A stretch of 64,000 nucleotides of DNA from Lasiosphaeris hirsuta (Eukaryota; Ascomycota; Sordariomycetes; Sordariales; Lasiosphaeriaceae). Below the pieces are notes generated by a model that searched no databases, was not told where the DNA came from, and saw nothing but the letters and a program-made list of their open reading frames with translations. Of the stretch, positions 2,022-53,806 are shown piece by piece. Numbering within the stretch: the stretch's first letter is position 1; every line of letters starts with the position of its first letter. Location of the stretch: NCBI GenBank assembly GCA_030549175.1, contig JAUKUA010000003.1:6014001-6078000 (forward strand), in the 5' to 3' direction. The translations under genes and the position numbers were made by a program.

Positions 2022-3209
2022 ATGGATCCGCCGGCACCGAACCCAGCGGCGCGCCAGAGTGCGAGTGCGCAGAGCAGTGCGCAGAGCAGCGCGCAGGTCG
2101 CCCGCTTCTGCCATCAGTACCTGCAATTCGACTCGGGGCTGGATTTCCCAGACGGCGAGCTGCTCCGCAACGCAGCGACCCAGGACATCCTGTACGACTG
2201 GCTGTTTGCCGACCAGGCCGTCATACCGCCGCTCCATCCGCGGTACCGGCTGAGGGTCCTCAAGGAGCTCATAGCCAGGATCGAGGCCGCCATTGTAGAC
2301 TGGGACGAGCATGTGAGTAGCAGTGCTCTCTCTATCATTTTTTTTCTTTTTTTCTTTCTTTCTTCTTCCGTAGTAGTCATCTCATAAGTCAAAACGCCGC
2401 AGGGCATCTCGGACGACCTTATGGCAGCGCTATCGAGCCTGATGTCTATGCCCTTGCCATCCCAGACCGATGCCGCGCAGCAAAAGTGCTATGTCCAGTA
2501 CCACCTCTCCCTCCTCGGGCCAGGAGGAGACCCAGCTCTCCGTCTCACCGACCCGCACATCACCCTCCTGGAGTCGCGCGCCCTCATCTCGGCGGCTGGC
2601 ACCACGGGGCTGCGCACCTGGGAGGCGTCTCTGCACCTGGGCCAGCACCTCTGCGCCAACCCGGGCCTCGTCCGCGGCAGGCGCGTGCTCGAGCTGGGCG
2701 CCGGCACCGGCTACCTGGCCGTGCTGTGCGCCAAGCACCTGGGCGCCGAGCACGTCATCGCCTCGGACGGGTCCGACGACGTGCTCAACCACCTGCCCGA
2801 CACCCTCTTCCTCAACGGGCTTCAGGGCTCCGACCGGGTCTCCGCCATGGAGCTCAGGTGGGGCCACGGGCTACTCGGCACCGAGGAGCCGGCCTGGAAC
2901 GGGGGCAGGGCCGTCGATGTGGTGCTGGGCGCCGACATCACCTACGACGCGAGATCGCACCCGGCGCTGGTGGCTACGCTGGAGGAGCTGGTCGGTCTGT
3001 TTCCGGATGCCGTGGTGATCATCGCGGCAACCGAGCGAGGCAGGACGACGTTTGAGAGTTTTCTGAGGACCTGTGAGAGCAGCGGCTTCCTCGTCAGCAG
3101 ACAAGACTTTCCCGTACTCCCGAGGAAGGAGCAAAACGGGCCATTTTACGATAGCCAGATGCCCATTCACATTTGCAAGCTGAAATATGTGCCAGGGGGA
3201 AAGCGGTAG
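2022..3209 (+). CDS. EFM3: Protein-lysine N-methyltransferase, EFM3/FAM86 type
   Basis: Exons are 2022-2312 and 2403-3209, with a 90-nt phase-0 intron (GTGAGT donor, CGCAG acceptor), giving about 365 residues. The N-terminal third carries a FAM86-like region (CHQYLQFDSGLDFPDGELL). The C-terminal two thirds are a class I SAM-dependent methyltransferase fold: motif I is VLELGAGTGYLA (about residue 190), the acidic end of strand 2 follows (ASDGSDDVL), and the post-motif strand is VVLGADITYD. Known members of this family (yeast Efm3, human FAM86A) trimethylate a lysine on translation elongation factor 2 in the cytosol; assigning the same substrate here is inference from family. The start was chosen because the ATG at 2022 follows a GC-normal leader and opens directly into the conserved domain. 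It is an ordinary housekeeping gene beside ribosomal protein S24. A generic methyltransferase-16 family member is the alternative. Confidence 0.85.
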
Positions 3210-6401: not shown

Positions 6402-9400
6402 CTAAAACTTAGCTGACGTCTTTTTTCTTCGCGTCGGACCGGCACTCGCCCATCCGCCTACAGTCTGCCGGTGAGCAGTCATCCTCCTTGGCACGCTATC
6501 GAAGGCTGACGCCGCAGTGGGCATGCTCGCGCCGCCGCGGTGGCGTTGCCACTTTTTCTTAGCCCAGCCCGGACCCGAAGGCAAATCTGGATCCTGATAC
6601 GTATCGTCGATGCTATCTTCGGCGTAATCTTCCACGACTTCGGGGGAGGGACTGCTAGAGACGAGCGAGATGACTTGGGAACCTTTTGGGATCCTGAATG
6701 AGCTGCTGGGCGTTGCCGACTTGTTCCTCGCAATCCGGGGCCGAGGGGGTGGCGGCTCCAGCGGGGTTTGTTCCGTCTTGGGCTTCGACGGCGATGTCCC
6801 TTTCTTCGCCTTCGGCTTCTCGATCGGTTTGTTGGCCAGTTGTTGGGCAAAACTCGACATTTTCCCGCCGTTGCTCTGATCGAGTTTCTCTTTCTTAACA
6901 CGGACTCTGTTAAAATTAAAATCGGACAGGACATCCTCGTTATCGAGATCGGAAGCGGCCTCTAACTTGCGGGCCTTGCGAGCATTGATCACCTTCTCGA
7001 CGGCGATGTCAAGGGAGCTTTCAGGATTCCCCAGCACGGGCAACGCAGCAGCGGCCTCGCTCCGTTTCGGCGAATGGCGTTTTGGCGACGGACGTTTCGA
7101 CCAAGGGGCGATGGGCGATGCTTCTGATTCCGAATCGTCATCGTAACCTTCCTCCATGTAAGCAGCTGGATCGTTCATGTAAAGGTCCGGATCGCTCTCC
7201 AGGTCATCATCCAGCTCCTCGTCGAACCCGCCCTCATCTGACTCTTCTACGCTCAACATCTCTCTGTCGTCATTCTCATGCTTTCCGTCCTTGCTCAACG
7301 GGGCCTCAGACCCTTCGTCGATTTTGTGGGGTCCAGCCTCGACGGAGTCATGCAAGTCTCCTCCCAGCTCGATACTGATATCTGAGCCAGGATGCTTCTC
7401 GCTCTGAGCACTCGGAGCGTCCGAGTGCGGTGGCGCGAGCTTTGGATATTGAACTTGGCCCTCGACAACCGGCTCCAAGTCCGAGAAACCGTTGAATGGT
7501 TCAAGAATAACCGGCTGTGACTCGGCAAACAGAGAGGAGGTTGGTGGGTCCTGAGAAACCGTCTGTACTGTCTTGGTTGCCTGTGGGCTGCTAGGGGGGA
7601 AAGGCGATGGCGGCTTGGATGTGGGAATTTCCGTTTCTTGCGACATCTCCTGTAGCTGACGCGTCGGACTGCTCACATCCAGAGGTCCTCCTTCGGCGAC
7701 AGACAGGTCAATGTCGTTACGAAAACCAGCTTCGTTCATGAGAACACTAATCTCATGCCGCCGGTCTTCAGTCATCGAGATATCCTCCTCAATCAAGGGT
7801 TGGACCGCCCGAGTTTCGGTCTCGCTTTCGATAATCGTGTCAGGGATGACGGTTTCGCCGGTGTGCTGAGCATCGACTTCCATGCGGCCAGACTGGCCCT
7901 CATGTTCTTGGGACTGTGAAGCCTCAACTTCCACCTCACTAGGTTGGCTCTCCTGCGCCTTTGGCTGTGAAACTTCAGCTTCCATTTGGTCCGGCTGGCT
8001 TTGATGTTCCTTTGGCTGTAAAGTCTCATGGTCAATAGTTCGGGACTGATCAGTGGTGGTCGAGTTGCTGCCAACTCGCTCAACCGTACAAGGTGCAGAG
8101 ATTCGGCAAACAGGATTGGGTTGCTCCCCAACCGCCAGTGGGTCTGAGACTTCTTGCTCGGGCTGACGCAGGATTCGGGGCTCGATCATGTCTGATTCGC
8201 ACAAGGTTCGATACCCAATCTCAGCACCGTCTTCAGCGTCATCATCCATCCCAGGCAACTCGAACTTGTCGTAGACACGGTTCCCGTCATCATCGTAGAT
8301 CTTCTCGTTCTGGTCAAGGTTCCAATCGCGCTTTGCGAGTCGAGCCCGGAGAGACTTGTCGTCGTGATCAACACTAACAACGAGGGCTACCATGCTAGAC
8401 ACCTGCGGTTGCCAATTTGTCGCCTTAGAAAGCAGCCACTGCTTCCATGTGATGACCATTCCGGGCCTGGCCTCACCAGGTGCGAGCGTAGGGAGGGTTG
8501 ATAAGTCATTCGGAAGGAAAGGCAGATCCTCCTCTTCAGCGTCTTGACTCGGCTCCGGCGACTCATGGAGCTGCTCTGGCTCGTCGTCGTAGTTGAGCGT
8601 GATGTCTGCGTTGCCAATCTCATCGGCGGCGCTGAGGTATGACTCTCCCTCGAAGCCTTCGTCGTCTGCGTATCCCGCATACCTGCCCCTTTTGGCACTA
8701 GGCTGGTCGTCTTCCTGGTAAAAGTCTTGCTGATTGCGCTGCTTCCGCTTGCCCCCCTTCTTTCTCCAGGAATTCTGCTGTTGGGGATCCCAGCGCTGGA
8801 CGAAGGGGAAAGGCGGCTCGCTGAGCTCGACCCCTTCTTGGCAGCATTCCACACCACGGTAAGTGATCTTCTCACGCCAGGCCACAGGGTCTTCCTCTTC
8901 TGGAACTTGATCCTGAGGGTCATCACCCGCCTGACCATCGCCTGAACTCTCAAGTCGAGCGTTAGGCAACACACGTACGTCTTTTATCAACTTTGCACGG
9001 AGTGCCTCCTCCTCCGCCTTGGTTTTCGGAGCTTTCACTCCGAGCGTGGCGAAAAGAACCCGACGACCAGCGCCGACGTCGAGTCGCGATGTTCGCTGCG
9101 AGGAAGCCGATGTCTGCTTAGGTGTCTCGGCTGTTGGGGCAACAATCTCATTTGGGACAGTAGCAGGCGATGCGGAAGGTTCAGTCACGTTGGAGTTGTC
9201 AAGATTTTTGTCAACATCCATAGAGTCGTTCGAAGCCGGCTCTTCTTGAAGCCCAAGACTCTTGAGCAGTGCTGCCTTCTTTGCGGCGAAGGTGTCGGAT
9301 GCCGTCGAAGCTTCCTGTGGTTGGCTAGCTGGCATTTGAGAATCAATACTGGCGGTCTGAGCATCCTTTTTTGCCTTTTCCGAAGCTCTCCTCCGCGCGT

Positions 9401-11539
9401 TGCGTCGCTGTGTAGCTGTTGTACCTTGACCTGGCAATGACTGTATGCCGGCATCGACAAGGGCCTGGATTTTAGGTTCTGCGGCATCAGAGCCACCTGG
9501 GCTAAGCCGAGCAACGGTGAGGGGCTTGACCCGGGCAGCCTTTGGTCCTGTTTCTGATTTTGACTTGGGTTTTGGGGTCGGTTCATTACCTGACTCTTCA
9601 CTGCTGCTGTCCTCAACATCCGGGGAATCCCGATCCTTATGCGAAGAGCCTGCTTCACCACCAGAGTTTCCGCCGTCCTGATCGCTGTCACTGTCACTTG
9701 AGGAACTGTCGTCGCTAGAGCTGTCACTAGAGCTGTCGTCTGAACTATCGTTGCTGTCACTAGAGCTGTCGTCTGAACTGTCGCTGCTGTCATTGTCTTT
9801 CATGCTGACATCCGAGTCCTCAGCACTGCTCTTGTCGCTAGAAACCTTGGCACCACCTCGAGGTCTCTGAACGCTCTTAGACGAGGCTTCCTCCGGCGGC
9901 CCACTGTCGCTATCACTATCACTGTCATCATCACTGTCACTGTCATTGCCGCTACTGTCACTGTCAGATGCCGGGGGCTCCTCATTATCCGAATCTGGCT
10001 GGAAACCGTCATCCGAAGAATCATCGGCGACCTCATCTCCGTTGGGGGTCGGAGAGGGCTTCTTGTTGGTTACCGGCTCCGACTCAGGGAACCAGGGTGA
10101 TGATTCTCTACTGCTGTCGGAGCTGCTGGCAATGTCATCAGGAAGAGCAGCGGGCGGCCTCACGGTCTTGACAGCCTCTTCCTCGGTGTCCTCATCGAAT
10201 CTGATATGGACAGGAATATTCACAGATTTTCCGGACTTGCGAAGGGCTTCGACCATGTGGGTGGAAGCCGTTCCGGCCAAAATCGAGCCCGAGGGGAAAC
10301 CGTACTCATCGTAATGCTTAACCAATGAGCTGACCGACTTGGCATCACTGCCACTGCTCTCTGCATCGTCTGCCTGGTTGGACTCCTCAGACGGGAGAGA
10401 CCTGTTTGACTCCCCAGACTGAAGAGTCCTGTTTGAATATCCAGACCCAAGAGACCTGCCGTGTCTACACATGGCGCGGATCGACATTTGTGCCTCGTGT
10501 GTCTCGCGCAGCTTCTTGTACGCCCTCATCTCGTCTTTGTTAGAACCAAGAAGCGCTTGTTCGCAGTCAACAACCGATGCGGTGGGGAATGCTGCACGCA
10601 ACGCCGTGATCTTATCAAGAGCCAAAAGATCAAGGGCGGCCTGGGTCATAGCTGCCCCAGAATTCGATTGGTCAGGGCTGTGGGCTTCTTCCTCCGGGCT
10701 CTGCTCTGGGATCTGCTCTTCCTCCGGCTGAAAAGGCTCGTCCTCCAGCTGAGCATTTTCCATTTGGAGATCCCGAAGCTCATCATCTATCTCGGCACCA
10801 TCGATTTCGATATCTTCGTCCGCGTCATCGGCCGCGTCTTCAACAAAGTCGTCGTCCTCCTCTTCATCGTCATCGTCAGCCTCAAAGCCGGGGTCATCGA
10901 GGTTGTCGAATGCGGCAGTAACTCGGACGCTATGGGGATCTTCGTAGTCCTCGTCTTCCTCATCATCTTCACCGTACTGTGTAAGGAGCAGCGGCGGGTC
11001 AGAGTCCGAGTCATGACCGTCTTCTTCGCTATCGTAGGCAATGCGGCGGCGCTTGAGAGGAGGGATGTCGATGGGTGGCCGGTCCCCAGGGGCCCTGAGA
11101 CGGGCTCGACCAAAGGGAACACCATCGATGAGGTGTCTACCACCAAGAGATATTTGGTCGCGGCCGCTGAGGCGACGCTTCTTCCGGTCTTCGGTGACGA
11201 GAGGGCGGATACTAGACAGCTAATGTTAGAAGAGAAAAACGGAAGCCATCAGGAACATGGGGAAAGCTGCACTCACAATATCTCTTCGTCGTCCTTCAGG
11301 ACGACAGACACCGACTGAAAGTGCAGGCAGTCAAAGCCGTGACCCTCGGCGTCGCGCAGCTCGACGACGTAATCCTCTAGGCCCCAGTCGTTGCTTTCGA
11401 GGGGGATGATTTCATTGACCTGCTCGAGAAGATTGGCGATGGTGGGATTGTTCTCGAGGGCGATGGTGAAGATGACTCGCACTTCGGGGAGGCCATGGCG
11501 TCGGACGACCAAACGGAGGCGAAAATTGTTGTCCTTCAT
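6402..11539 (-). CDS. Very large acidic nuclear-type protein with a coilin-like layout
   Basis: Exon 1 is 11277-11539 and exon 2 is 6402-11211. The 65-nt intron has GTGAGT and CTAG signals and phases agree (2+1), giving about 1690 residues. The N-terminus (residues 1-88) looks like a ubiquitin-like fold: basic strands RLRLVVRRHGLPEVRVIF, then an acidic helix and a GFDCLHFQSVSVVL strand. A conserved-looking segment follows (IRPLVTEDRKKRRLSGRDQI and HLIDGVPFGRARL). Residues about 150-700 are disordered acid/serine repeats (SSDDSSSD type). Near residues 850-1060 is a second folded stretch (GVECCQEGVELSEPPFPF; WKQWLLSKATNWQPQVSSMV) that could be the atypical Tudor domain of coilins. The C-terminus is basic and disordered. 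Ub-like head, long disordered middle and Tudor-like segment match coilin, the Cajal body scaffold, but sequence identity is not obvious to me. A fungal DUF-type protein is the alternative. Confidence 0.7.
9675..9985 (-). repeat. Asp/Ser-coding repeat tract
   Basis: The DNA is a degenerate run of GAC/GAT and AGC/AGT/TCT codons inside the large acidic gene, giving tandem SSDDSSSD-like units over about 100 residues. Such tracts expand by slippage and are common in nuclear scaffold proteins; many serines sit in casein-kinase-2-like acidic contexts. Confidence 0.6.
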
Positions 11540-15746: not shown

Positions 15747-17051
15747 TTATCGTGACCGTGGTTGCAATGGCGACCCCATATCCAGCATGTGTCCCATCTT
15801 CTCAATCTGAATGACATTGTTAGCATTGCGCGCTGCACTTCCGATAGGGTGATGGCTTACTTTTGTCTTTAGGTAACCCTCCACCTCCGGCGCCCTGAAG
15901 CCTCCGCTGCCCTTCCACGAGAGGGGGACCATGGCCACACGTTCCCTGACGACGATCTCCCTCCTCGGCCCCTCGACGGCGCGAATCTTGTCGGGGTTGT
16001 TTGTCAGCAGACGGATGTCCTTCTGACCGAGATCTAGCAACATGGCTGTGGCGAGGCCGTAGCTGCGGGCGTCGGCAGGGTGGCGGAGGAGCAAGTTGGC
16101 CTCGACGGTATCATTGCCCAGGTCCTGTAGGTTATATGCCTTGAGCTTCTCGCCAAGCCCGATGCCTCTGCCTTCTTGGCGTAGGTAGATGATGATTCCG
16201 CCCGACTTATTGCTCGGGAGCGACATGAGCCGCGCGGCTTCGTCGAGCTGCTCACCGCAATCGCAGCGAGCAGACCAGACCGTCTCCCCGGTGTAGCACT
16301 CGCTGTGTATCCTGACTAGTGGCGGTGTTTGCTCTCCCTGCTCATCTGCCACCTCCTTCTCCTCGTCCCCGGCTCCATCTGCATGCGTGGCGCCCCCGGT
16401 CCCCGTCAACCCGCTTGTCGTCCTCCCAGGGTAGAGCCGCCCGGTGTATGCGCCCCGCACGAGCCTGTCCATTTCCGTCTCGCCCTCCCGGACAGCGTCC
16501 AAGGATTTGCTCCGAATTGCCGGGCCGAAGACAATGGCGAGGTGCTCCTTGTTGTCCACGTTGTTTGTGTAGAGATGCAGAAACATCTCGGCGCCGGTTG
16601 TGGTTGGTATCCGTGCGCGCACGACGCACTCGACGTGGGGCAGGGTCTCGAGGAGACGAGGGTGTTTGCTACCGCATCCGCCCGTGGGTATTGAGCTGTC
16701 GACAGGCACGCCGCGGGGTTCGGGGAGGAGAAGGGACGGCGCGGCATTGCTCGGCGTGGTCGTCCCCGGAGTCGAGGGCGGGGTAAAAGCAGGCGAGAGC
16801 AGCGACGGCGGCGGTGCCGGTTGTGTCAGGGAAGGCGTCGGGAGTGGCGATGGCTGCGAGGGAGCCGAGGATCCTGTCGAGGCAGCATCGTCGTCTTCGG
16901 CCGAGAGTGTAGCCGGGTCGTTGGGGGAGAAGAAGTTGGCGCGCTCGACATCGGCGTCGCTCTCGGCTGGCTGACTCGAGGTGGTCGGGGGTGAGTAGAA
17001 GGAGGGGAATTGGGCTGCGCCCTGCCATTGTCCTGATGCGATGCCTGGCAT
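15747..17051 (-). CDS. RIB1: GTP cyclohydrolase II (first step of riboflavin synthesis)
   Basis: Exon 1 is 15861-17051 and exon 2 is 15747-15806, giving 416 residues. It converts GTP to 2,5-diamino-6-ribosylamino-4(3H)-pyrimidinone 5'-phosphate. The catalytic core is complete: [20 protein letters not shown] supplies the zinc-binding cysteines, and [20 protein letters not shown] and GNDTVEAN are present, with LLTNNPDK downstream. The first about 130 residues are a Pro/Ser/Thr-rich fungal extension. Positions 15807-15860 are read here as a 54-nt phase-0 intron: GTAAGC donor, perfect TGCTAAC branch point, TTCAG acceptor. Left in, it keeps the frame open and inserts 18 residues between YLKTK and IEKMGHML, which are adjacent in other fungal Rib1 proteins as I recall them. 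Housekeeping gene, secure. Confidence 0.95.
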
Positions 17052-18069
17052 TGTGTGATGTGTGACGGCGCGGCGGCGCGGGTGTTTGTTGTAGGAGCAA
17101 ACCGGATTGAGGGGTATTCGACAGATTTACCGGGAATGGGAATGCGACGGCAGCGTGATCGCAGGCTCGGCCCGGAATCCAGTCTAGCTTGCGATAGCTT
17201 TGAGATGACGGGATGGGAATGCGGGGCAAAGCGAGATGACCAAAATGTCAAAAATGTCACGATGCGAGGTTGCAGAAAAGTGACTCTGGGGTCGGTACTA
17301 TGGTCTGCCGTGAGGAGGCAACTTTGCGATGTATCAAATATGAAAAGTAAGGAATGTCAGAGCCGAGATGCTCCTGACCCGGAGAGGGCGGCTTGGCTTG
17401 CTCATCAAGAGTTCAGCAATTGAGAGGTATTAGTCATGGCCCCCGGGCCCTGAAAGGCACTTCGCGGGGTTTCTTCGCCGAGTTTCCATGTTTCAACTCG
17501 CAACATCTGCCAGGGCGCCAGGGCCAGCCAGGGCCCATTTGCGGGGTCGCCGGCTCGCCGGACGAGCGATCGGCTGCCAGACCCGAGCACGGACGGGCTC
17601 TAAATTTATCTCCACCGCCCTTGCTCTCGTCTGCCCAATGCCCAATGCATCTTCAATCTTTCCAATTTCTTGCTTCTGCTGCCTATCAGATGCGACATCA
17701 CCATATCGCAAGCGCACTAGCATCTCAGGACGTATTCCCCCCTTGGCGGGCTCGCAATGCCAACCCAGGAACCTGACGTCATGTAGCTGCTTTGGCGGCT
17801 GGGACAGATGAGCCCTGCAGGTTTAGACTGAACAATTGCACCGTGCAAATGCGGCATCATGTGCAGTGGCTGCATTTGCATCTCGAAGCCAATTCTATGC
17901 AAGTATTTCCTTTTACTAACGATGGACCCATCTATATCATCTTTGAACTCCAGCTTTTTTTTTCCTCGACGCATTTCCCAATGTCCTTTCCCATTGCCCC
18001 ACGCCCCATTGTCATTGTCATTGCCCCGTCCCAATACCCAAAAGCAAGCCGTCTCCGAGGCTAATCTTG
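17052..18069. other. Intergenic region
   Basis: Promoter of RIB1 (minus) and 3' flank of the membrane-protein gene (minus). ORFs here have no recognisable content. Confidence 0.5.
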
Positions 18070-37000: not shown

Positions 37001-38412
37001 GGGGCACACAAAAGAAATAAATGGTGGAGGTGGTGGTCTTTGAGGTTTTGTTAGCGTGCACCGGGTTTCCAAGTAATTCCAAAAAAAATTGATTTCATCC
37101 CGCCTTTTCCGGCAGAGGTGTGGTTTTCCTGCAACTTTCCACCTGTTGGCGCATTCTCCGAGGCTCAGACACACAAGCTTGGCTCAACAGTATCGGATAC
37201 GGCCTTGCTTCCACCTCATGAAGGCACTAGCACGGTGCTCTTTCCGCTGGCGCCATTCTGGCTCTGCGGGTCGTTTCAGTTGCAGAGGTGAGCCGTTTTT
37301 CTGGTATATATTGATGGTGTCCGAGTAAGGTGCTGACATGGACTGCAGGTGGTTTGGAGAAATAAATTGATTAAACTCTTGGCGACCTCATCCTACGTAC
37401 TCCTTTATGAGACTCAGTTCCCAGAACCTGATACTTTTCTACACCGCCCACTGCAAGCAATGGGGCCAAACAGACGTGAAGGTTCTAGCGTGCCTTCATC
37501 ATCGTCTCCGGCAGTCTCCAGCCCGACGGGAAGGAGAGCAACCGTGCAACCAATATCGTAACTCCCCCCGGTTTCTACCCACGGCCTGCCCTCCCTCTTC
37601 GCCTTCCCTGGAACTGGCAGTCTGAGGTTGTTGACCTCTTTCGAGAGGCTAAGCTTCCGTGATAAGCTGAGCACCACCTAGAGTGGTGCAGTGGTTCCCC
37701 CAGTGATGAAACGGTACCTACTAACATTGAAGCATCTCTAGCATAGCTTCCGAGCAATGCTGAGCAAAACCAAAATCTGCTTGGGGGGGAGGGGGGAGGG
37801 GGGCTTTTTTTTGGGGGGGGGGTTGGAGGGTGCAGGATGTCTTATAGAAGCCAGGAAAGCTTTCTTTTTGCATCTATTGAGCTATAAAACTTTGTGCGTT
37901 GGCGCGCAAAACGCCTCTTTGCTGAAGATCCGGAGAGATTCGAACCTTGCTGCTGTTAAGCTTCTGCCGGGCGGTTTCGCCACTGGATGATTGTTTCGAG
38001 AAGACATGCCGTGCTTTCCGCTTGTTGCCCGGTGTAACTATGCCTTTCCCCGAGTTCTCGCCAACCCATTGCCGACACTTCGGATAATACCGAGAGACGG
38101 CGCTGAGGGGAAGAAGCACACCTGTTGGTGTTTACGGGTCGCAATTAAGGGGGGGACGATAGGTTGAAAGCTGCACGGATAAATTGCACCCCCTCGGACG
38201 CGCCGTCCTGCACTATCGCCAGGCCGGCCGATATTATACCCCAGATTCCAAGCTCGGAATGGCATCCGAGTTTGATTGCGGCATTTTGGGAGGGCTTAGA
38301 AAGGGGAGCAAGGTGATCATGGGAGGCAGGTACTAAAGGGGGGAGGGAGGAGGCGACGACGGCTATGGAACCAGCGACCTGGACCCCATCCACGTCCACA
38401 CCGGCACCCAAG
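37001..38412. other. Intergenic region with G-rich tracts
   Basis: Contains broken G runs at about 37782-37823 (G8, G7, G9 separated by a few bases), which could form G-quadruplex structures. No gene is supported. The last 200-300 bases are the promoter of the SsuA-like gene; a purine-rich GGGGGGAGGGAGGAGG stretch lies at about 38338-38354. Confidence 0.5.
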
Positions 38413-39366
38413 ATGCACGCCCGCCGCTTCCTCCGCCTCCTGGCGGCCCCGCTGTGGGCCGCCTCGGCCCTCCGGCTCGCATGCAACACGGCCTGGATCG
38501 AGCACACGCCGCAAGCCTACACGTTCAAGAACACGTACAAGGGCGACACGCCCGGGGTGCTGGTCAGCGGCGGGGCGGCGAGCCTCAGCGACGCCAGCAT
38601 CGACCTGGCCGCCAACGCCGAGACGCAGGGGCTCAAGCAGTACGCGACGCACCGCAACTACCGGCTGATCTACGTCATTGTCGAGGTCTCGTACCGGCTG
38701 GTGGCGCGGCGCGACGCCGGCGTGGCGCGTCTGGCCGACCTGCGCGGCAAGCGCATCGGCACCGCGTCCGGGTCGTCGGCCGAGGTGTTTGTGCGCCAGC
38801 TGCTCTCCACCGCCGGGCTGGCGCACGCCGACTACACGCTCGTCTCGGGCGGCGTGTGCATGCGCGCGCCGTGCGCTGCCGGCAGCTTCCCGGCGATGCT
38901 GCGCGACCGCAAGATCGACGCCTTCGGCATCTGGGAGCCCGCCGTCGAGCTGGGCGTCCAGGCCGTCGGCGAGGCCGAGGCCGTGCTGTTCCAGAACGCG
39001 TCCGTCTACCGCGAGATCTACAGCCTGTACTCCACCGTCGAGAAGCTGCGGGACCCGCCGACGCGCAAGAAGATTGTCGAGTTTGTGCGCGCGCTGAACC
39101 AGACGCTCGATCTCTTCCGGAACGAGCCCGACAAGGTGTATGCCGCTGTCGGCCAGACGGTCGGCGTCGATGTGCCGGTTTTGAAGGACGTGTGGGCCGA
39201 CCACAAATGGGGGCCCGGCAGCCTGGGACCGGATCTGCTGGATTACTTGGTGGTCGAGGACGAGTATCTTGCCAAGACGGACAAGAGGGCCGGCATATCG
39301 CGGGCGGACCTGGCCAAGTTTATCGACACGAGTGTTTACGACGAGGCGTTGGCCTTGAAGGGCTGA
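38413..39366 (+). CDS. Secreted SsuA/THI5-like substrate-binding protein
   Basis: About 317 residues from the ATG at 38413, intronless. This start was chosen because it opens into a good signal peptide (MHARRFLRLLAAPLWAASAL). An in-frame ATG at 38365 would put 16 polar residues in front of it. The mature part resembles periplasmic solute-binding proteins of the SsuA/TauA/NMT1 type. RLADLRGKRIGTASGSSAEV is the conserved turn before the ligand-binding helix, RQLLSTAGLAHADYTLV follows, and FPAMLRDRKIDAFGIWEPAV is the second-lobe motif 'aL..G.vDA...wEP'. In bacteria such proteins deliver sulfonates, taurine or pyrimidine precursors to ABC importers. Fungal THI5/NMT1 relatives make the thiamine pyrimidine, but that family is cytosolic and carries a CCCFC motif that is absent here. 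The secreted form probably binds a small extracellular ligand; the ligand is unknown. Confidence 0.82.
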   Translation: MHARRFLRLLAAPLWAASALRLACNTAWIEHTPQAYTFKNTYKGDTPGVLVSGGAASLSDASIDLAANAETQGLKQYATHRNYRLIYVIVEVSYRLVARRDAGVARLADLRGKRIGTASGSSAEVFVRQLLSTAGLAHADYTLVSGGVCMRAPCAAGSFPAMLRDRKIDAFGIWEPAVELGVQAVGEAEAVLFQNASVYREIYSLYSTVEKLRDPPTRKKIVEFVRALNQTLDLFRNEPDKVYAAVGQTVGVDVPVLKDVWADHKWGPGSLGPDLLDYLVVEDEYLAKTDKRAGISRADLAKFIDTSVYDEALALKG

Positions 39367-41183: not shown

Positions 41184-42613
41184 TCAAACCTCGTCGCGAC
41201 TCTTGCTCTCCAGCCCAGAATCCCGGGCATCACGGTTCCGCGTCATCAGCGTCTCGCTGCTCCAGGTCGAGCCCGTCATGGGCACGAGATCTCTCCGAGG
41301 CTTGTTGTAGTAGACGCGCCGGGACGAGCCGTTGGTGTCGACCAGGTGTCGCCTCGACCGGCTGCTGTGGTGGCTCGGGTGGTGCTGCTGCTGGCCGCGC
41401 CGCCGCGACGGCCGCACGCTGCGCACCAGCATCCGCAGCATCGGCACCGAGGCGGCCATGATGGTCACGGCCGCCTCGGCGTTGCCCCAAATGACGAGCG
41501 TCACGCCGTCGTCTAGAGTGCTGTTACTATCTCCTGCTGGGTTGGATGAAAAAAAGAAAAGGAAGGAAAAAAAAAAAAAAAAGGAAACAAAAAAAAAGAG
41601 GTTAGTAGTGACTAGTGCTTACGTGGAAAGTCACGCCCGCCAAGCTCCGGGAGGGATGAGCATTTGATGAATGCTGCCGCGGCCGCGCTGGGAGCGGTTA
41701 GTGCATGGCGTCGACTGCGGGTCGGGGGTCTTGTCTGTACTCACAAGACGCCCATGCTCATTGCGAGCGCGACTCCTATCTTCTCCTTTGTCTCCATCTG
41801 CAGCCGCATGATGATCTGCCAGGGGATGATGGCGAATACCAGGTCCAGGATGCCGGAGTATGCTGAAAGACGCCAACGCTGTCAGTCGGCCGATGATAGA
41901 CAAAAGTCAGTACCTACGCGGCTGGCTTACCGGTTGTGAAGATGCCGTAGGTGATGATGACATTGGGGCTCCAGCAGGTGCCCCTCATGAGGGGGTGCCA
42001 CGCCTTCTCCAGGGGCATGCATCCCACCCAGAAGAACATGGCGGCCATGCCGAGCAGCAGGTTCATGGACACGACGGCGAACCATATAAAGATGCGCGTC
42101 TTGCCGTGGATGCCGTCCGAGATGAGCAGCAGGGTGATGGCGAACGACGTCTTGCTCCACGCCTGGCTGCAGATGGCGAGCGTGACGGTGATCTGGCCGA
42201 TCAGGTACATGTCGTTGAGGTTCTGGAACGGTATTTGCCAGGCGTGCTTCCCGTAGCCCAGGTCGATGGCCATGTTTGTGGTTACTGCGCTGCCGAGCAA
42301 CGCGAGCTGTTGGAAAGTCTGTTAGCTCCTGATTCCGATTCCTCCTGCCGCGCACCCGCCGCCTTACCCACGCCGCAATGGCAAAGTAGTCGTCTGGGTG
42401 GAACCGCCGGTGCCGTGCTGCCTTGCAGTACAGCCTCATGAGCAGGAACAGCAGCGATGCGCCGACCAGTATCCAGACCGACACGCGCGTCGTTGGCCCG
42501 AGGTCGTCATCCTGCAGCCTCGACCGCCAAAAGCCCGGAAAGTTGGTAAAGTTCCTTGTGTCGGTGTCGCTGTTGGCGGTTGGTAGCGTGTTGTTGAAGG
42601 TTGAGTTGTTCAT
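41184..42613 (-). CDS. Seven-helix integral membrane protein, SAT4/rhodopsin domain
   Basis: Five exons: 42368-42613, 41931-42306, 41745-41862, 41623-41687 and 41184-41536. Introns are 61, 68, 57 and 86 nt and every phase agrees, giving 385 residues. Family landmarks in order: VSVWILVGASLLFLLMRLYC, RFHPDDYFAIAAW, the helix around MYLIGQITVTLAICSQAWSK and TSFAITLLLI, LLLGMAAMFFWVGCMPLEKA, TCWSPNVIITYGIFTT-AYSG, ILDLVFAIIPWQIIMRLQME, KEKIGVALAMSMGV and TLVIWGNAEAAVTIMAASVP. A basic, Ser/His/Arg-rich cytoplasmic tail follows. The acceptor for exon 3 was fixed by phase: of two nearby AGs only TTTCAG at 41863-41864 keeps the family sequence. These are plasma-membrane proteins of unknown ligand. 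It is divergent in sequence from the gene at 18.1 kb, so it is a paralogue rather than a recent copy. Confidence 0.88.
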
Positions 42614-43823: not shown

Positions 43824-44454
43824 TCAGCGTCTCCAATTCATGCGCACGCACTTATACGTCCCCAGCTCGGCATTGCTGCTGGCCTGCCACCCCTCGTCGT
43901 CCTCGACCAGCTGCCCCATACAGTGCTTGGCGTGGTAGTAGCTCAGCGTCTTGTTGTCAACCCACTCCCTCCGCTCGTGCACCGCTGTCGAAAGCTTGGC
44001 CCACATGAAGAGGCAGTGCTCGGTGTGGAAGCGGCGCGTCCAGATACTAACATGACGCCCGGCCATCAGCTGCTCGACGGATATCTGCTGCGTAAGGTTG
44101 CTGTCGGTGTTCCACGGCCGGTCCTCGAAGACGGGCCACTGCGCCGTCAGCGAGTCGTAGTGGCACTGCAGCGGGATCCACCCGTAGAAGAGCGGCTCCA
44201 TCTTGCACCCGCGCGAGAGCGCTGCTGTTGCCGCAGTCGTTCATCAGCGGGGGGTCCGGGGGCGGGCTCAGTAAGAAGTAGTAGACCGCGCCGGTGGCTG
44301 TGACGGCGAGGGCGGCGAGGGCGGATATAGAGAGGAGCCGGCGGATTTACCACATGGAGTCAGATGGTGTCTTGCCGCTTGCCGATACGGCGCCATCAAT
44401 TGGGGCGTACCGGACGCCCCGGTAGGACTGGCTCGATTTGTAGATGCCGAACAT
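43824..44454 (-). pseudogene. Single-pass membrane protein with two HxxHC motifs (UstYa-like layout), reading frame broken
   Basis: From the ATG at 44454 (MFGIYKSSQSYRGVRYAP) the frame has a short cytosolic head. Next come a transmembrane helix (LLSISALAALAVTATGAVYY), a conserved MNDCGNSSALAR, and then GCKMEPLFYGWIPLQC. The lumenal domain carries RRFHTEHCLFMWAKL and SYYHAKHCMGQLV and ends at 43824. I recall this as a common fungal family of unknown function. The two HxxHC motifs, the single N-terminal helix and the size mirror UstYa/DUF3328 oxidases. An evolutionary or mechanistic link is my inference. Two lesions are visible: a TAA at 44347-44349 just before the helix, and a one-base frame change in the GCGCGCGGG stretch near 44210-44222. 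It is transcribed away from the peptide precursor gene, 0.9 kb apart. Confidence 0.6.
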
Positions 44455-45361: not shown

Positions 45362-46014
45362 ATGAAGGCTTTCACCTTTGCCGCAGGTTGCCTCGTGGCG
45401 ATTGCTGCTACCGCTCCGGTGGCAGACACCAACTCGGCCGTTTCTCCCAAAGGTAGACAACTTAACCACATCCCATTTTTAGCAAAGAAATGGATTCTGA
45501 CTTTATTGACATTTTGTTTCAGCTGCTCGCTACTTTGAGTACTATTCGGTGCCCGCAGGGGCTGATGGAGAGGCCGTCAAGGCAGCCAAGGGTAAAGCGA
45601 ATCAGAATTTCCGATGGAACTCCAGAAAAGAGCTTAACCAGAAGATAGACAAACGTGATTTCCTCTTCTACCCCGTCCCATCGGGCGCCGATGGAGAGGC
45701 GGTCCAAGCCGACAAAGGTACGAGGGCAGATTCCAGAGATCCTTGACGATACTAGTCAGAATAACCGAGTTAACTAGGCGGCCAACAGCCAAGCGTGACT
45801 TTCTCTTCTACCCCGTCCCATCGGGAGCTGATGGAGAGGCTGTTCAAGCTGCCAAAGGTACTTTGGCAGATCCAAATTTCGGAAATGCCTGCCAGAATGA
45901 GGCTAACATGAAGTAGAAAAGCGGGATTTTCTTTTCTACCCCGTTCCATCTGGCGCCGATGGAGAAGCCGTCTCGGCCAAATGTATGGTCTCCGGTTCCC
46001 CAGAGTCTATTTGA
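45362..46014 (+). CDS. Kex2-processed repeat-peptide precursor (candidate dikaritin-type RiPP precursor)
   Basis: Exons are 45362-45452, 45523-45591, 45649-45717, 45789-45857 and 45917 onward; with the last exon unspliced the stop is at 46012-46014 and length is 131 residues. Residues 1-22 are a signal peptide (MKAFTFAAGCLVAIAATAPV). Exons 2-4 are each exactly 69 nt, and all introns are phase 1. Units 2-4 have KR (Kex2 site) followed by DFLFYPVPSGADGEAV and a short acidic/Ala/Lys spacer leading to the next KR. Unit 1 is divergent, lacks a preceding KR and reads YFEYYSVPAGADGEAV. This is the design of fungal precursors such as those for ustiloxin, phomopsin and epichloecyclins: a secretory signal, then tandem cores released by Kex2/Kex1. 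The neighbouring UstYa-type gene strengthens the assignment. The core sequence is not one I know. An alpha-pheromone precursor is less likely, as no WC..GQ..W-like core is present. Confidence 0.85.
45523..45982 (+). repeat. Four exon-plus-intron units encoding 23-residue peptide repeats
   Basis: Each unit is a 69-nt exon (the last is partial) plus a 57-71 nt intron. Exons 3-5 are nearly identical in DNA around the segment coding FLFYPVPSGADGEA. The introns between them also share fragments (GGCAGAT, AATTTCxGA-like), so the duplicated unit included intron sequence. Because all junctions are phase 1, units can be skipped or multiplied without changing frame. Confidence 0.8.
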
Positions 46015-46970
46015 GTGACCAGTGTACTGACGGCGAACAAAGAGAAGCCGGGCTACCCAAACTGACGGTAACAGTCCAAATTTGAGGCAACTTGCTACGC
46101 ATAGAGTTTATGCTTCAATTGTTGACATAACGCGGCCGTTCTGGTGACTTTCAAGAAGTGCTACTTGATATTGAGGTAGATAGGACTCTGGGTCTCATGG
46201 GAAGACTAGTTGCCGAGGATAAATGAGACATGCGTTATTCTATGTATTATTCAATATTGTCGTTTTAATCCCCGCATGATTGTGACTATGATCCTGAATT
46301 GTTACCAGTTATCACCAGGGTTATTGCATCCCGGGTCTTGGTACTTGTAAGTGACATCCGATAGGTAATATTCCCTTTACATGACACCATGACAACTTAG
46401 AGAAATGCGATCGTCGAAACTTGAGTTGAGCCGAGGTGAACATGTCTACGTGGTGTATTAAAAGCTGCAGCGGCTTACCAAGTGGGTTTCTAAACGGAGT
46501 GTGCATTCAATGCTTGAGGTCCGCAAGTTCAACTCGACAAGTTGCCCGTCGGTGTATATGGGTGATACCGTGGGGAACGGAAGGATGCTCTACAAAGAAG
46601 CCGTTGGTGTTTTAAGCAAGCACCTGATCTCCTAAGCCTAGTTCAAGCTCTACCTTTCCGTCCCAGATGGCTTGTTGTGTCTAAGTCAGCAACAGTAAGC
46701 ACATCGCAGTCAGAGATCGACGTTAGACTACCACCACCATGTGCGCCCGGCCGCCAACTTACCTGTACTTGGAAAGTGCATCGGAAATATCCAAACACCA
46801 TGACTGCATATTCCCACGTTTTACCAGATATTGTCCTACTCCTTTCGCAGCCGACATCAACGACGTCTTAGGCGGTTCCGCGCTTGGCTGGTTGTTTCGC
46901 TCCCTCTCCCCCTCTTTGACTGGAATGAATTCTCCAAGCCAAAAGAATTCCCGCGTTGGAATTTGTCGAA
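46015..46970. other. Intergenic region between precursor and UstYa-type gene
   Basis: No coding sequence is supported. Contains the 3' UTR of the precursor and the promoter of the UstYa-type gene. No second copy of the 44965 palindrome was found here. Confidence 0.5.
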
Positions 46971-48021
46971 ATGTCTTCGTTAGAAGAGAAATCCCGGTTT
47001 TCGAGTTCTCTCGAGCTTGAGACCAGCGATCAGCCCTTGTTAGCTGGCGGCGAAGCAGAGTCAGGGTCAAAAACACCACGCCGGCGTGGCTACTCCGCAC
47101 GCTTTTACCAGATCTTGCCTTATGTACTGGTATTGCTTGCAGGTACCAATCTTGTGACGGTTCCTCTTCTTCTTACAAAACATTCCTGCACTCCAGGCGG
47201 TCCCATATACCCCAGTTTGTCCTCTCCTTGTGAACATGTGTTGACCTAGCTAACCCCCTCGTTCAGAACTCAAAGGTGTTGATGAAACATATCGCTGGAC
47301 GCAATCTACTTCCACATTGTTCTCCCAGAGCCAATATGTTGCACGACCATCGCCAGAGGTGGATGCACTGTGGAAGGATCTCGGGGCCGAGAGTCAGTCC
47401 TCTCGCCCCACTGGCAGCTGATCACGAATCTAACACGATGCAGTCGATGACATCTTGATACCAGCTCACTACGGGAAAGCGATCGACGTATCGCCAGAAC
47501 ATGCCTTTGTCGAGTTTGAGCCAGGCAACCCCTCATTTGTAGTGTCGGTAGAGGCTTTTCATCAGCTTCACTGTCTCGTAGGTTCTGCACCCGGGAACCA
47601 ATCATGGCTGCTGTACTCACTCTTGTCCCAGAACCTCCTCCCGCAAGTCATTGTTTTACAATGCAGACTACTACAAGGACCTCGGAGTGAAAGAGTTTCG
47701 CAATCACGGAAAAACACTGCAGATGCACATCGGTATGAGGTCGCTTGACTGTTTTCTATCTCGTGAAAAGGGGCTAATACCGTACGCCTAATAGATCACT
47801 GTCTTGATATGCTGAGAGAACGGCTGACGTGCACAGCAGACGCGGGCATCCTACCGTCGTTCTACACCATCTACAACACAACGACGCCCGACTTCAAAAG
47901 AGACCATCACTGCCGGGATTATCAATCACTCCAGGCTTGGGGGAAAGCAGCGAAAGCGCTTCCCAAGGGCATGCTGCTTCGTCCCCCAGAAGGGGCGTTT
48001 GTATTGGAACATGTGCCTTGA
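46971..48021 (+). CDS. UstYa/DUF3328-type oxidase (peptide-modifying), with a one-base frame conflict
   Basis: Exons are 46971-47214, 47267-47392, 47444-47577, 47632-47732 and 47795-48021. Residues 1-45 are cytosolic (MSSLEEKSRFSSSLELETSD), followed by a membrane helix (YQILPYVLVLLAGTNLVTVP). The lumenal domain carries both family signatures: FHQLHCL at the end of exon 3 and HIDHCLDMLRERLTC across exons 4-5. It ends QAWGKAAKALPKGM then EGAFVLEHVP. In ustiloxin, phomopsin and asperipin pathways such proteins catalyse oxidative cyclisation of the precursor core, with the HxxHC motifs binding metal. Intron 3 (47578-47631) is 54 nt and stays open. After splicing, exon 4 reads N-L-L and then needs one base fewer in the CTCCTCCCGC stretch at about 47633-47644 to continue with RKS. 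The gene is therefore either mutated, mis-assembled or spliced in a way I cannot see. Confidence 0.8.
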
Positions 48022-48140: not shown

Positions 48141-50180
48141 TTATAGCTTTACATCCCCCCCCTCCATCGCCCTCCACTCTTTCTGCCCGAAAGGGGCGTA
48201 TGTCCCGTCTCTGAGCCAGAAAACGCTATCCCCTAGCATTTTGGCGGGATCCACACTCTGATTTCGCAGCCCGTTTTTCTGCTGCTTATTCGTCCCCGTG
48301 TTCTGCAGACCAACATCCTGAACAATCCTCAAGAACAGCGGCACCGCGTACTTTGGCAGGTTATCCCTGGCATGCTTCGCGAGGCTGGCTAGCAACTCCT
48401 CACTCGCCAGCGGCTGATCGATCGCGAGGGCGACACAGCCCGCCCTCCCGTCATGATGCGGCAGCTGCACGCCGTAAACATTCGCCTCGAGCACAGCCGG
48501 ATGGGTGCCCAGGGCCTGGGCCACCTCGGCCGTTGACACATTCTCGCTCTTCCAGCGGAAAGTATCCCCGATGCGGTCGCTGAAGTAGAGTCGGCCATCC
48601 CCGACCCCGTCCCACCGCAGCACATCGCCGGACCGGAACCAGGCGTCACCGGGGCGGAACACGCCCCGGGCAATCTTGGAATCGGTCGCCGCGCTGTTGC
48701 CAAAGTAGCCCTGGAACCGCGCACCCACGTCGTCGCTGGGCAGCTGCACCACGAGCTCGCCGGCCTCGCCGGTGTGCGCCCGCTGGCAGAAGCCCGTCCG
48801 GGGGTCGCGCCACGGCGCCTCCGTCTCGAAGTCGAGGCGCACGATGGCGCTGCGCGAGGCGACAAAGGCCTTGGAGAGCACCCCGTACCGCCCGATGGCC
48901 CCCTTGGCGAAGTCGTTTCTCGACAGGTTCCACAGCCCCAGCGCACCTTCGGTGGCTGCGTAAAATTCGAAAATGGTCTGGGGGGGAGGGTATTAGCTGC
49001 GGGCCCCCCGATAACTTTTTTTTTTTTTTTTTTTTTGAGAGGTACGAACATCTATCCCGAAGCGCTCCTTGAACTTGTCCCACACGTCAGGCCGCAGCCC
49101 GTTCCCCATGGCGATGCGCACATTGTGTTTCTTGTCGAGGTTCTCGCCCGTCACTGGGTCTATCTCGGCCGGTGTGACGGTCAGGTACCGGCACGTCTCT
49201 CCCACGTACAGAAAGCCGGTGGCCTTGGTCTCGCGGGCCTCTTTCCAAAAGGTCTTGGTTGAAAACCGGCGTCCAAGGGAGACCGCCGCGCCAGCGAAGA
49301 GGACACTAGCTACGCCGATGCACGAGGCGGAGCTATGGTAAAGGGGCATGCACTTGAACTAGTTTATTAGATCTAGAAGAGCGACAGGCTGGGGGAAACA
49401 AGGGGGGGGGGGACTCACGACGTAGAAAATGTCATTGCCCTTCAAGCTCATGCCCTTTACCGCCATCATGGCGGCCATGTAGATCTTGCCCCACGACACC
49501 ACGGCCGGCTTCGGCAGGCCTGTGGTACCCGAGGTATAGATCAGAATAGCCATGCCGACATAGCTCTCAACGTTGCGCACCTCATCCATATACCTCGCCG
49601 GCGCGGCCGCCGCCGCCTCCGCCTCCACTTCGGGCGAAAACACGACAAACCGCACGGCCGGCAACTCCCCGCGGACCTCCTCAGTCAACCCAGCCTCCAA
49701 CCGCGGATCCACGATGGCAAGTGTCGCCGCCGACGCACGGAGCGAGTGCGTCAACGGCGCACCTGTCAAGTTATGATTGATAAATGCCGGCGTGGCCCCG
49801 ACAGCCCACAGCGCGAACCACAAAAACACAAACGCCGCCGAGTTGGTAAAGTCGAGCGCGACCACGTCGCCCTCGCGCACGCCGTGCATCTCGCGCAGCC
49901 AGCTGCCGTACCGCAGCACCGCGTCGTACGTGGCCGCGTACGTGTGCGCGGCGCCCTCGAAGAGCAGGAACGGCCGCTGGGCCGTGGCCGGCGACTGCGC
50001 GTGCTCTTCAAGCACGTAGAAGAGGTTGACGCGGCCGGCGCGCGAGGCACGGATGAGCTTGATTACGGCCCTGCCGAAGATGCGCGCAAAGACTACGTCG
50101 TGCTCGAGGGAGAGGCGTGCGTTAAGGTAGGCTGCGCCGGCGACGCTGGCGGCGGCGGCGGTTAGGGCGAGGGAGGCCAT
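48141..50180 (-). CDS. FATP/FAT1-type acyl-CoA synthetase (AMP-binding enzyme)
   Basis: Exons are 49419-50180, 49050-49358 and 48141-48977; introns of 60 and 72 nt, all phase 0, giving 635 residues. The N-terminus is a membrane-associated helix (SLALTAAAASVAGAAYLNAR). The AMP-binding P-loop is ILIYTSGTTGLPKPAVVSW, followed by MPLYHSSASCIGVASVLFAG, the family motif TIFEFYAATEGALGLWN and RSGDVLRWDGVGDGRLYFSD, then DTFRWKSENVSTAEVAQALG. This layout fits the very-long-chain fatty acid transporter/activator family (yeast Fat1), at peroxisome, ER or lipid-body membranes. Intron 2 has a GTTCGT donor and a T21 tract on the plus strand (A21 in the transcript). It is convergent with the UstYa-type gene, only 120 bp apart. 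A role in peptide acylation is possible but unsupported; a housekeeping lipid role is the simpler reading. Confidence 0.88.
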
Positions 50181-50744
50181 CTTTTTTTTTTTCGTCGTCT
50201 TCTTCTTCTGGTATTGGGTGGGGGTGCTGTGAGGGAGTCAGGACATCGGATGCCCGGATTTTATTATAGATACGTGGGCTGGTGAAGGGGGACGGTGTTG
50301 ACAACGAGACCGAGGTGAGGGAGAGGGAGCTGGCTCATTGCTGACACCCAGTATTTCCAGTTTGGGGGTAGTTGGAGTCCGTGTTGGAGCACGTTTTGTC
50401 GCCGTGGTTGGGGAGTGAGGGGAAAGGACCAACATACCGAGGCACGATCCCACATGAGTTTCAAGTTGAACCCCAACTCGGAACGACATTAGAGACCACG
50501 GTGCTAGTCTTGTGCACTGGGACCAATACGACGCCAGAGACACTGTAGCCTGCGACTTGAGCGAGAACAACTTATTCAATTCATCGCTCTGGGGAGAGGG
50601 TGTACCAAAAAGAATTTGGCCGGGCATGGCTTCGCTGCCCATAAATTTCCCTAAATTTTTGGCAACCAAAATTCTCTCCTTTCAAGACTAAAGTCTAGGG
50701 CACCCCTGACCCACCCCACACCATCGGTATTCCTCACTGGTCGC
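50181..50744. other. Intergenic region, boundary to repeat-rich DNA
   Basis: Promoter of the acyl-CoA synthetase gene. No other gene is seen; the ORF at 50238-50669 has arbitrary sequence. Downstream of about 50.7 kb all coding traces are relics. Confidence 0.5.
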
Positions 50745-51940: not shown

Positions 51941-53806
51941 CCCTGAAAACGGTAGATTGATTGATTGATAGGTTAACGTCTGGGGTTCGCCTAGGGCGAC
52001 GGGGACGCCGGGGGCCGAGGGCTATAGGCCCGAGCCCCCGGAAAGCTCGTGTAGACAACTATGAGATCCTCCTGCCCAAAATCCTAGCCTAGAATATACC
52101 CTTTGCCGTTAGAAGGTCCCACCAGCCCATCATAACTTACCTATCGCTCAAAGGTACACAAAAACTCCGTAGAGAAAAGCTACCTTTAATATCCAATAGG
52201 AAAGACAGGAACACCTTCCTCTCCCTCCACTTTGTTTCCTTCCCCGGGGTCGTGGGCCCTCGCCCACTCCCTTTCTTCGACAGTCTGCAGGGTAATTTCT
52301 TCCCGGGGTGATCCTTCCTATACAGGCCGAAGAGGGCTGGTGCTGGTTTGTTAGGGCGTAGGAGCTGTAGTGGCGAGCCTCCTCTCATGGTAGGAGTGAA
52401 AGTCCCCGTGCCCGGTTCTCTCTGCTAGGAGTGTGGCGAGCTACCTCCTTTGTAGTTTGAGCTCCGGGGGAGGCTCTCTCCTGAACTTAACCTTCCAGTG
52501 GGCGTAGTTTACGGGTCTAACCTCCTCCTACTACTCCTAGTATACCCTTGCCATGTGCCATCGGCCAGCGGGGCCCCCCTCTGGGTCTCCCAGCCTACCG
52601 GGTACTTAGCCCTCTCGTGTCCTCCCGTGGTATAACGTTCGTACGGTAATTCGCCCTTACACTTCTTCTTGAGCCCGTGGCACCTATCGTAGCTATTCCC
52701 AACGGTCTCCTCCCGTCCCCGATGACGACCTTCGGGTACTTCCGGGTCGTTTACCTTCTTCCTTCGCTCCGACCTCTAACCTAGTGGTCTGGGGATACCC
52801 GGCTTGGTCCCCCTTCCCTTAGGCGACGTTAAACCTTACTACGATTGAGTAGTCTACCCCTACCCTACTGAGGTTAAGGACTCTGGCGGCGTACTTCCTT
52901 CGCCTCTCTTCGAGAGCAAGGTTGATAGGCGGGATCCCTGATTCTACGTAGATGGCTTGGGCCGGCGTGATTTTCTAGATCGTGAGGGCGGCCCTAAGGG
53001 TGTCCTTAAGGACTCCCTCAAGCGCCGTACCCCCCCTCCCTTCCTATCCGTAGCCTTCGGGGCCCTTCTACTAAGCTTCTGACCCGTACAGAATCCGGCG
53101 CATTATTATGGCAGCTACCCCTCTTACCTCTAGGGCGGGGGATAAGACGGCCGCCTCTGTCCCTCCCTCTACCCTCACGAGTAGGTCGTCGGCGTATATG
53201 AGCCTTCTTAGGCAAGCCTTCACTGAGGTTTCCAGATAGAGGCTAAAGAGGATCGGTGATAGGGGGAGTCTTATGGGAGCCCGGATTTGGTACGGGGGCT
53301 GACCCCGTCTATCCGGAGTATAGCCTGCCTTCCTACCAGGAAGTTTAGGACGAAGTTGAGGAGGGCCGGGGGTCATTCTTGCTTCCTTATCCCATTAATG
53401 AGCCTTATTTTTTTTACACGTTATTGAAGCGTCCGGCGATGTCTCCCGTGAGGATCCCTTCTACCCTACCCCTCCGTAGGCCGTCTTCGACGTCGTGGAC
53501 TAGCGTGGTAAGAAGGTTGGTGGCCGACCTCCAGGGGGCCCCTCCGCACTGATCGGTATAAAGGGCCCTCCCCGCTAGGGCCGCCTCAGTAACCTTAGCC
53601 GCCACGACCCTCTCTAAGCCTCTCCCTTGGGTCAGAATAAGGGCTATCAGTCCAAGGGACCGGGTGGTAGTTGGGTCCTTCCCCTCCTTCGGTAGGAGGA
53701 TCACCTCGGCCGTTCGCCATGCCCTAGGGCAGTACCCCGTGGCTAGGCAACCCTGCAGAGGGCTCGGATTCCCTCCGCGAAGGCCGATACCCCTGAAAAC
53801 GGTAGA
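51941..53806 (-). mobile_element. 5'-truncated non-LTR retrotransposon (Tad-like LINE) with 16-bp target-site duplication
   Basis: The element body is about 51957-53790 on the minus strand. It is flanked by identical copies of CCCTGAAAACGGTAGA at 51941-51956 and 53791-53806. Next to the left copy is the 3' tail, read on the element strand as CCTATCAATCAATCAA. The sequence encodes pieces of a reverse transcriptase: ATGYCPRAWRTAEVILLPKE with GKDP, SLGLIALILTQGRGLERVVA, DQCGGAPWRSATNLLTTLVH, LPLSPILFSLYLE and the catalytic RLIYADDLLVRVE at about 53160-53205. Frames are interrupted by many TAG/TAA. TpA is frequent and CpA scarce, as expected after RIP. The 5' end begins inside the RT domain, so it was truncated on insertion. 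The tail, duplication and truncation are the classical marks of target-primed reverse transcription. Confidence 0.85.

Follow-up and report, generated by a model that had tools for sequence, protein, structure and literature searches.

Does a small repeat-bearing gene of Lasiosphaeris hirsuta encode a precursor of UstYa-dependent peptides, and, if so, would this strain make the product? The gene lies in a window of 64,000 nucleotides, the whole stretch of DNA that was analysed (C8:6014001-6078000 of a 44.4 Mb genome in 14 contigs). An earlier note on this DNA had described a repeat precursor at 45362-46014, and the coordinates, the signal-like N-terminus and the four units were all borne out by the sequence. 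In our splice model, which was derived from the sequence, the precursor gene (45362-46014, plus strand) has five exons and encodes a 131-residue protein. The four modelled introns, of 70, 57, 71 and 59 nt, are all GT-AG and all in phase 1, and exons 2, 3 and 4 are exactly 69 nt each, which makes the model self-consistent. Furthermore, the intron 1 junction is the same in P0001, the gene model of a relative in Lasiosphaeria hispida. Exon 1 (45362..45452) encodes the signal-peptide-like start MKAFTFAAGCLVAIAATAPVADTNSAVSPK, in which Lys, a hydrophobic stretch and A-T-A are seen, and P0001 begins similarly (MKAFATLTALVAIAAAAPMANTDSAASPK). Unit 1, ARYFEYYSVPAGADGEAVKAAK, is encoded by exon 2 (45523..45591) and is preceded by K-A-A-R without a dibasic site, as found from the splice model and codon comparison. 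These two approaches, together with the genome search, place unit 2, (D)KRDFLFYPVPSGADGEAVQADK, in exon 3 (45649..45717) and unit 3, (A)KRDFLFYPVPSGADGEAVQAAK, in exon 4 (45789..45857); the genome search and splice model place unit 4, (E)KRDFLFYPVPSGADGEAVSAK, in exon 5 (45917..46014), with an optional tail CMVSGSPESI*. The protein thus reads as a signal-like start ending in SPK, followed by A-AR-YFEYYSVPAGADGEAVKAAK, D-KR-DFLFYPVPSGADGEAVQADK, A-KR-DFLFYPVPSGADGEAVQAAK and E-KR-DFLFYPVPSGADGEAVSAK-CMVSGSPESI. All units start with K-x-[K/A]-R, and the exon borders fall inside codon x. By eye, a possible fifth intron is visible (GT at 45983, AG ending at 46042, with CTGAC between), the splicing of which may place the stop directly after Lys in place of CMVSGSPESI*.

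The precursor contains four units of 22-23 residues each. Repeats of 23 residues had been claimed for all four; the repeats stand, with this slightly variable size, and unit 1 carries a different core, YFEYYSVPAGADGEAV, after K-A-A-R. Units 2-4 each follow K-x-KR and have DFLFYPVPSGADGEAV in common, so that, as had also been claimed, a dibasic KR site lies ahead of three of the four units and an identical 16-residue segment is present in three of them. The residues after KR are DF at all three sites. Within the aromatic part, DFLFYPVP, the residues Phe2, Tyr5, Val7 and Pro8 are constant in 4/4 units, and Tyr5, the residue by which a core is judged for dikaritin cross-linking, is in the core of every unit. 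When the 44.4 Mb genome was searched with the 23-residue unit, four matches were obtained at E <= 10 (4/4 candidates scored), all of them in the precursor, which argues against a chance repeat. Synonymous and nonsynonymous codon differences stand at 8:1 between units 2 and 3, 8:2 between units 2 and 4, and 11:2 between units 3 and 4 (21 codons each), where a one-codon offset at the unit end adds one nonsynonymous count to the comparisons with unit 4. Since units 2-4 differ mostly synonymously, the peptide, and not merely the DNA, has been held constant; a tandem DNA repeat without coding meaning was rejected on the same ground. Unit 1 differs from the other units by 7-8 nonsynonymous and 8-9 synonymous codons, and this is not mere drift because L. 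hispida has exactly the same AARYFEYYSVPAGADGEAVKAAK. Likeness among introns 2-4 amounts to 66-71%, compared with shuffled means of 55-58%, and intron 1 shows little of it. The intron likeness weakly hints that exon and intron may have been copied together. Given the layout of one core per 69-nt exon, with both ends in phase 1, such copying of an exon plus its intron is the probable way in which the gene grew.

Downstream on the same strand lies a UstYa-family gene (46971..48021, plus strand; exons 46971-47214, 47267-47392 and 47444-47577, a piece at 47642-47732, and 47795-48021), the start codon of which, at 46971, is 956 nt from the precursor. Its PF11807 (UstYa) match scores 80 bits over window positions 47293-47946, and the genome as a whole has 41 PF11807 matches. 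The motif HQLHC is found at 47560-47574 and H-I-D-H-C spans the last intron. Two HXXHC motifs have been proposed, in the accessible part of PMC12048977, as a mark of RiPP-related DUF3328 proteins, and a PF11807 protein with two such motifs beside the precursor, as found here, is what defines the dikaritin class. When widened by 2 kb, all other UstYa matches together occupy 111,007 bases, 0.25% of the genome, so the nearness of precursor and UstYa would arise by chance about 1 time in 400. A search with the N-terminal piece of the UstYa protein (168 aa; 58 candidates) gave two relatives with E <= 1e-10. These are P0002, from L. hispida (76% over this piece), and P0003, from Echria macrotheca (49%), with PF11807 scores of 144 bits and 144.7 bits, respectively. 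By taxonomy look-up, Lasiosphaeria hispida and Echria macrotheca belong to the Sordariales. The predicted structure of P0002 (mean pLDDT 44) was too poor for a fold search, a PDB sequence search with P0002 gave 0 matches, and NCBIfam contained no family above cut-off for the four proteins tested.

The earlier note had called for a search of fungal proteomes with the 23-residue unit. Among 5.77 billion proteins (6065 candidates), the only relative of the precursor at E <= 10 is P0001, L. hispida B0T25DRAFT_628299 (E 8e-26). This single relative, and the absence of the four core strings from the open-licence literature searched, are consistent with the claim that the core is undescribed. Beyond its similar start, the P0001 model has an identical unit 1 and one DFLFYPVPSGADGKAV unit; it keeps coding through a stretch matching the place of window intron 2, and then reads on into a tail that matches the window in four collinear pieces (46020-46082, 46673-46705, 46677-46766 and 46777-46800), reaching 170 nt before the UstYa start. 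These pieces are in changing frames and one contains a stop, as expected of homologous non-coding DNA. The best of them, at 25.8 bits, was equalled by 0/1000 shuffles of the tail (maximum 23.5), and the other three, at 20.0-21.9 bits, are each singly below that maximum. Since the tail matches intergenic DNA of the window, the L. hispida precursor very probably has the same placement, directly before DNA equivalent to that preceding UstYa in the window. P0001 and P0002 are both listed on a contig of 6,826,676 bases. In the L. hispida counterpart of DFLFYPVPSGADGEAV, Lys replaces Glu.

The public P0001 model was observed to retain an intron-like stretch and to extend into apparently intergenic DNA. 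For this reason, precursors with a one-core-per-exon layout can escape repeat searches of annotated proteins, and other small-exon precursors like P0001 may be mis-annotated elsewhere.

Upstream of the precursor and divergent from it lies a second gene with a membrane-anchor-like start and the motifs HTEHC and HAKHC (43824..44440, minus strand), the open part of which comprises 138 residues at 43827-44240. Six proteins match it at E <= 1e-5; P0004 (100%) is the window's own, P0005 of E. macrotheca is 66% identical, and no L. hispida relative is among the matches listed at this threshold. P0003 and P0005 are both listed on a contig of 2,595,912 bases. PF11807 was found neither in two window pieces of the second gene nor in 5/5 relatives (P0005-P0009). 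In a profile comparison with UstYa, only 42 columns around the HxxHC pair could be aligned (probability 30%, E 5e-4). Two HxxHC motifs are present in the second gene, P0005, P0006 and P0007, and in neither of the predicted proteins P0008 and P0009. We regard the second gene as putatively UstYa-like, going by its motifs and its place, but do not count it in the family. The relatives P0005-P0009 have no Pfam match above cut-off; the longer members have a membrane-anchor-like start, most contain CKMEPLFYGW, and WTRRFHTEHCLFMW with the second HxxHC occurs in 3/5. The predicted structure of P0005 (mean pLDDT 47) was too poor for a fold search. Elsewhere in the window, no peptidase, exporter or methyltransferase family was found among 19 ORFs scanned with Pfam, and 0/42 genome matches to PF00264 (tyrosinase) fall within it. 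The Pfam scan also revealed apparently unrelated genes: a fungal rhodopsin-like gene (41917-42321), an NMT1-like gene (38317-39366) and AMP-binding pieces (48144-50237). A weak RVT_1-like match at 53074-53394 (minus strand, E 0.0044, below the Pfam cut-off) is perhaps a retroelement remnant.

The PF11807 neighbour, its very probable pairing with a precursor in L. hispida and a peptide under selection lead us to consider it likely that this Sordariales locus represents a small RiPP cluster of the dikaritin type, in which UstYa would cross-link cores freed by Kex2. Points that speak against this reading are the frame breaks in both HxxHC genes, the want of a dibasic site before unit 1, and the negative results for tyrosinase in the window and for peptidase, exporter and methyltransferase families in the 19 ORFs scanned. 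Ustiloxin, phomopsin, asperipin and, as is thought, epichloecyclin are made by secretion, Kex2 cutting and UstYa cross-linking, according to the sections available of PMC6514808, PMC9233826 and PMC8982410. Membership of the class of precursors that includes those of ustiloxin, phomopsin, asperipin and epichloecyclins, as the earlier note had proposed, is well supported by the adjacent UstYa and by the related precursor and UstYa of L. hispida, that is, mainly by facts outside that note. Judging from its N-terminus, the precursor would be secreted into the ER. Kex2 would cut after the K-x-KR motifs seen in its units and so free DFLFYPVPSGADGEAV... peptides, the spacer of which would consist of Gly, Ala and acidic residues. 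UstYa, from the adjacent gene, would then oxidatively cross-link the aromatic part DFLFYPVP, and peptidases would trim the Gly/Ala/acidic spacer. On this view the mature product would be the oxidatively cross-linked aromatic half. In the part of PMC7329392 available, a DUF3328 gene lies near 1758/7878 Kex2 repeat proteins, and Tyr is present in 65.6% of the repeats of DUF3328-accompanied Kex2 repeat proteins, against 38.2% in others.

Whether this strain makes the peptide is a separate matter, since both HxxHC genes contain frame breaks, which lessens confidence in a product. We regard it as a serious possibility, although not one that we favour, that the family is as described and the cluster has decayed here, the modifying genes being pseudogenes and the precursor left unringed or unexpressed; this is compatible with the dikaritin-type reading. 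The UstYa frame changes after HQLHCL, which ends at 47577, and before RKSLFYNADYY, which begins at 47642, in a region where P0002 and P0003 are continuous, and this change may be a lesion, an assembly error or an unusual splice choice; a GT-AG choice could bridge the frame with the loss of a few residues. In the second gene, comparison with P0005 of Echria shows a stop within the frame near 44347 and a shift of frame near 44215; these may likewise be lesions or assembly errors. Local assembly errors are possible, but open frames as long as 1605 aa (6402-11219) and 459 aa (15747-17126) elsewhere in the window count against frequent errors. The precursor gene, for its part, is intact, and the last UstYa exon is identical to that of L. 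hispida in 71/76 residues, so any decay would be recent. The UstYa of L. hispida and the E. macrotheca counterparts of the two enzyme genes are recorded as continuous proteins, so that L. hispida offers an intact UstYa and Echria an intact relative of each enzyme gene. For this reason we place more trust in the assignment to the family than in production of the peptide by this strain.

Because exons 2-4 are each 69 nt with phase-1 ends, skipping one of them would leave the frame unchanged. In a more elaborate arrangement, the exons might act as exchangeable cassettes of a single gene, with alternative splicing setting which cores are made (YFEYY of unit 1 or DFLFY of units 2-4) and in what number, and with the second, non-PF11807 HxxHC enzyme acting with UstYa on the peptide. 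We hold this arrangement to be tentative and on the whole unlikely.

A further alternative, which we judge improbable, is that the gene yields an unmodified secreted repeat peptide, such as a pheromone, a hormone, or a wall or signalling peptide, and that its UstYa neighbour is unrelated. A signal followed by KR-separated repeats is the design of such peptides as well, and in the accessible part of PMC7329392 the neighbourhood of 6120/7878 Kex2 repeat proteins is free of DUF3328 genes. Against this, UstYa is the immediate neighbour, and the same pairing is very probably present in L. hispida. No XA/XP (Ste13) dipeptide, as defined in the text available of PMC6339444, follows KR, and the unit lacks the W or C of the PCW-type pheromones described there. 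Pheromone-type repeat genes, as far as the available sections of PMC7329392 report, are without DUF3328 companions, with three exceptions. An alpha-type sexual pheromone precursor was rejected, as there is no Ste13 dipeptide (DF after KR, 3/3) and UstYa lies 956 nt downstream. It is very improbable that splicing differs, with intron 2 retained or the exons misread so that the units never join: intron 2 (57 nt) has a length divisible by three and contains no stop, and P0001 codes through the corresponding stretch, but 4/4 introns are GT-AG and phase 1, three exons are exactly 69 nt, and retention of intron 2 would keep all units and KR sites in frame.

In the same genome, 20 stretches around other UstYa matches, excluding those at C11:2481772 and C14:332414, were scanned for repeats that contain dibasic sites. 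The scan marked 6 of the 20 stretches, and by eye five contain clear repeat precursors beside the UstYa match: DATQYYDKR in L018 (about 7590-7960), DTVIPDKQKYEKR in L022 (about 2400-2900), LAKDGIKIKAVNTYKR in L028 (about 2800-3100, minus strand), ARHHKGKKTNGKR in L030 (about 1500-2100, minus strand) and ARQGGKKVTFLPKDYKR in L032 (about 2600-3150, minus strand). As at the window locus, the repeats are flanked by KR, and UstYa matches share the 10-kb stretch with them. Their repeats are in one open frame, whereas the window gene has one unit per exon, and their cores are, by eye, unlike the window core. A longer spacer after the first unit of L028 is perhaps an intron. The one-unit-per-exon layout is particular to the window gene among the six precursors compared. 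A reversed-sequence control of the repeat scan gave 7 rows, 7/7 of which map onto arrays marked in the forward scan (2 in the window precursor, 1 in L018, 2 in L030 and 2 in L032). Because reversal leaves the repetitive character of a sequence in place, the control is barely informative on chance and uninformative on coding, and the evidence that the precursor repeat is a peptide lies in the comparison of synonymous and nonsynonymous codons.

Several other features were observed in this genome. Some of the five other precursors have Lys-rich or His-His cores. In the sixth stretch marked by the scan, L025, a secreted-looking Gly-Tyr repeat protein (GYGSYGxYKPPAG; about 1000-1110, minus strand) without clear KR spacing lies near a UstYa match. 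At C11:3845137-3859710, six UstYa matches, some of which may be exons of one gene, have three tyrosinase matches (C11:3856711-3857442) between them; this is a candidate ustiloxin/phomopsin-like cluster. At C13:706204-715414 UstYa matches are unusually dense, with eight in about 9 kb, some of which may again be exons of one gene; the repeat scan marked no KR-repeat precursor in L016 or L017, which belong to this C13 group.

To the UstYa-dependent peptides this work adds an undescribed core, together with a locus that at least two genomes of the Sordariales have in common. New cores are common in this field (838 types and 2560 stand-alone in the portion of PMC7329392 available), and the class of the precursor is already known; its core is undescribed and its exon-per-core gene is unusual. 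In the open-licence literature searched, we found no precedent for a one-repeat-per-exon precursor.

Among known systems, as far as the consulted sections of the cited papers describe them, the ustiloxin and phomopsin clusters are alike in having KR-flanked repeated Tyr-containing cores and UstYa homologues (PMC6514808). They require a tyrosinase, whereas the window has no tyrosinase match, and their cores, YAIG (PMC6514808) or YVIP (PMC7329392), are unlike those of the window. Ustiloxin or phomopsin proper was rejected as an identity, given that no tyrosinase of the UstQ/PhomQ type matched in the window. The asperipin-2a cluster (aprA, aprY, aprR and aprT) shares with the window a UstYa-type gene without a tyrosinase; it comprises four genes, none of them a tyrosinase (PMC6514808). 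It includes a reductase and an exporter, neither of which was identified at the window locus. Its core, FYYTGY, and the DFLFYPVP of the window both have several aromatics, although the sequences differ (PMC6514808). The epichloecyclin cluster of Epichloe (gigA and a UstYa-like cyclase) resembles the window locus in its signal peptide, its few KR-separated imperfect repeats and its clustered UstYa-like gene (PMC8982410, PMC9233826, PMC6514808). In the parts of this literature available, epichloecyclin cores join an N-terminal Ile to an internal Tyr, whereas the window core is without Ile and begins with DFLFY or YFEYY.
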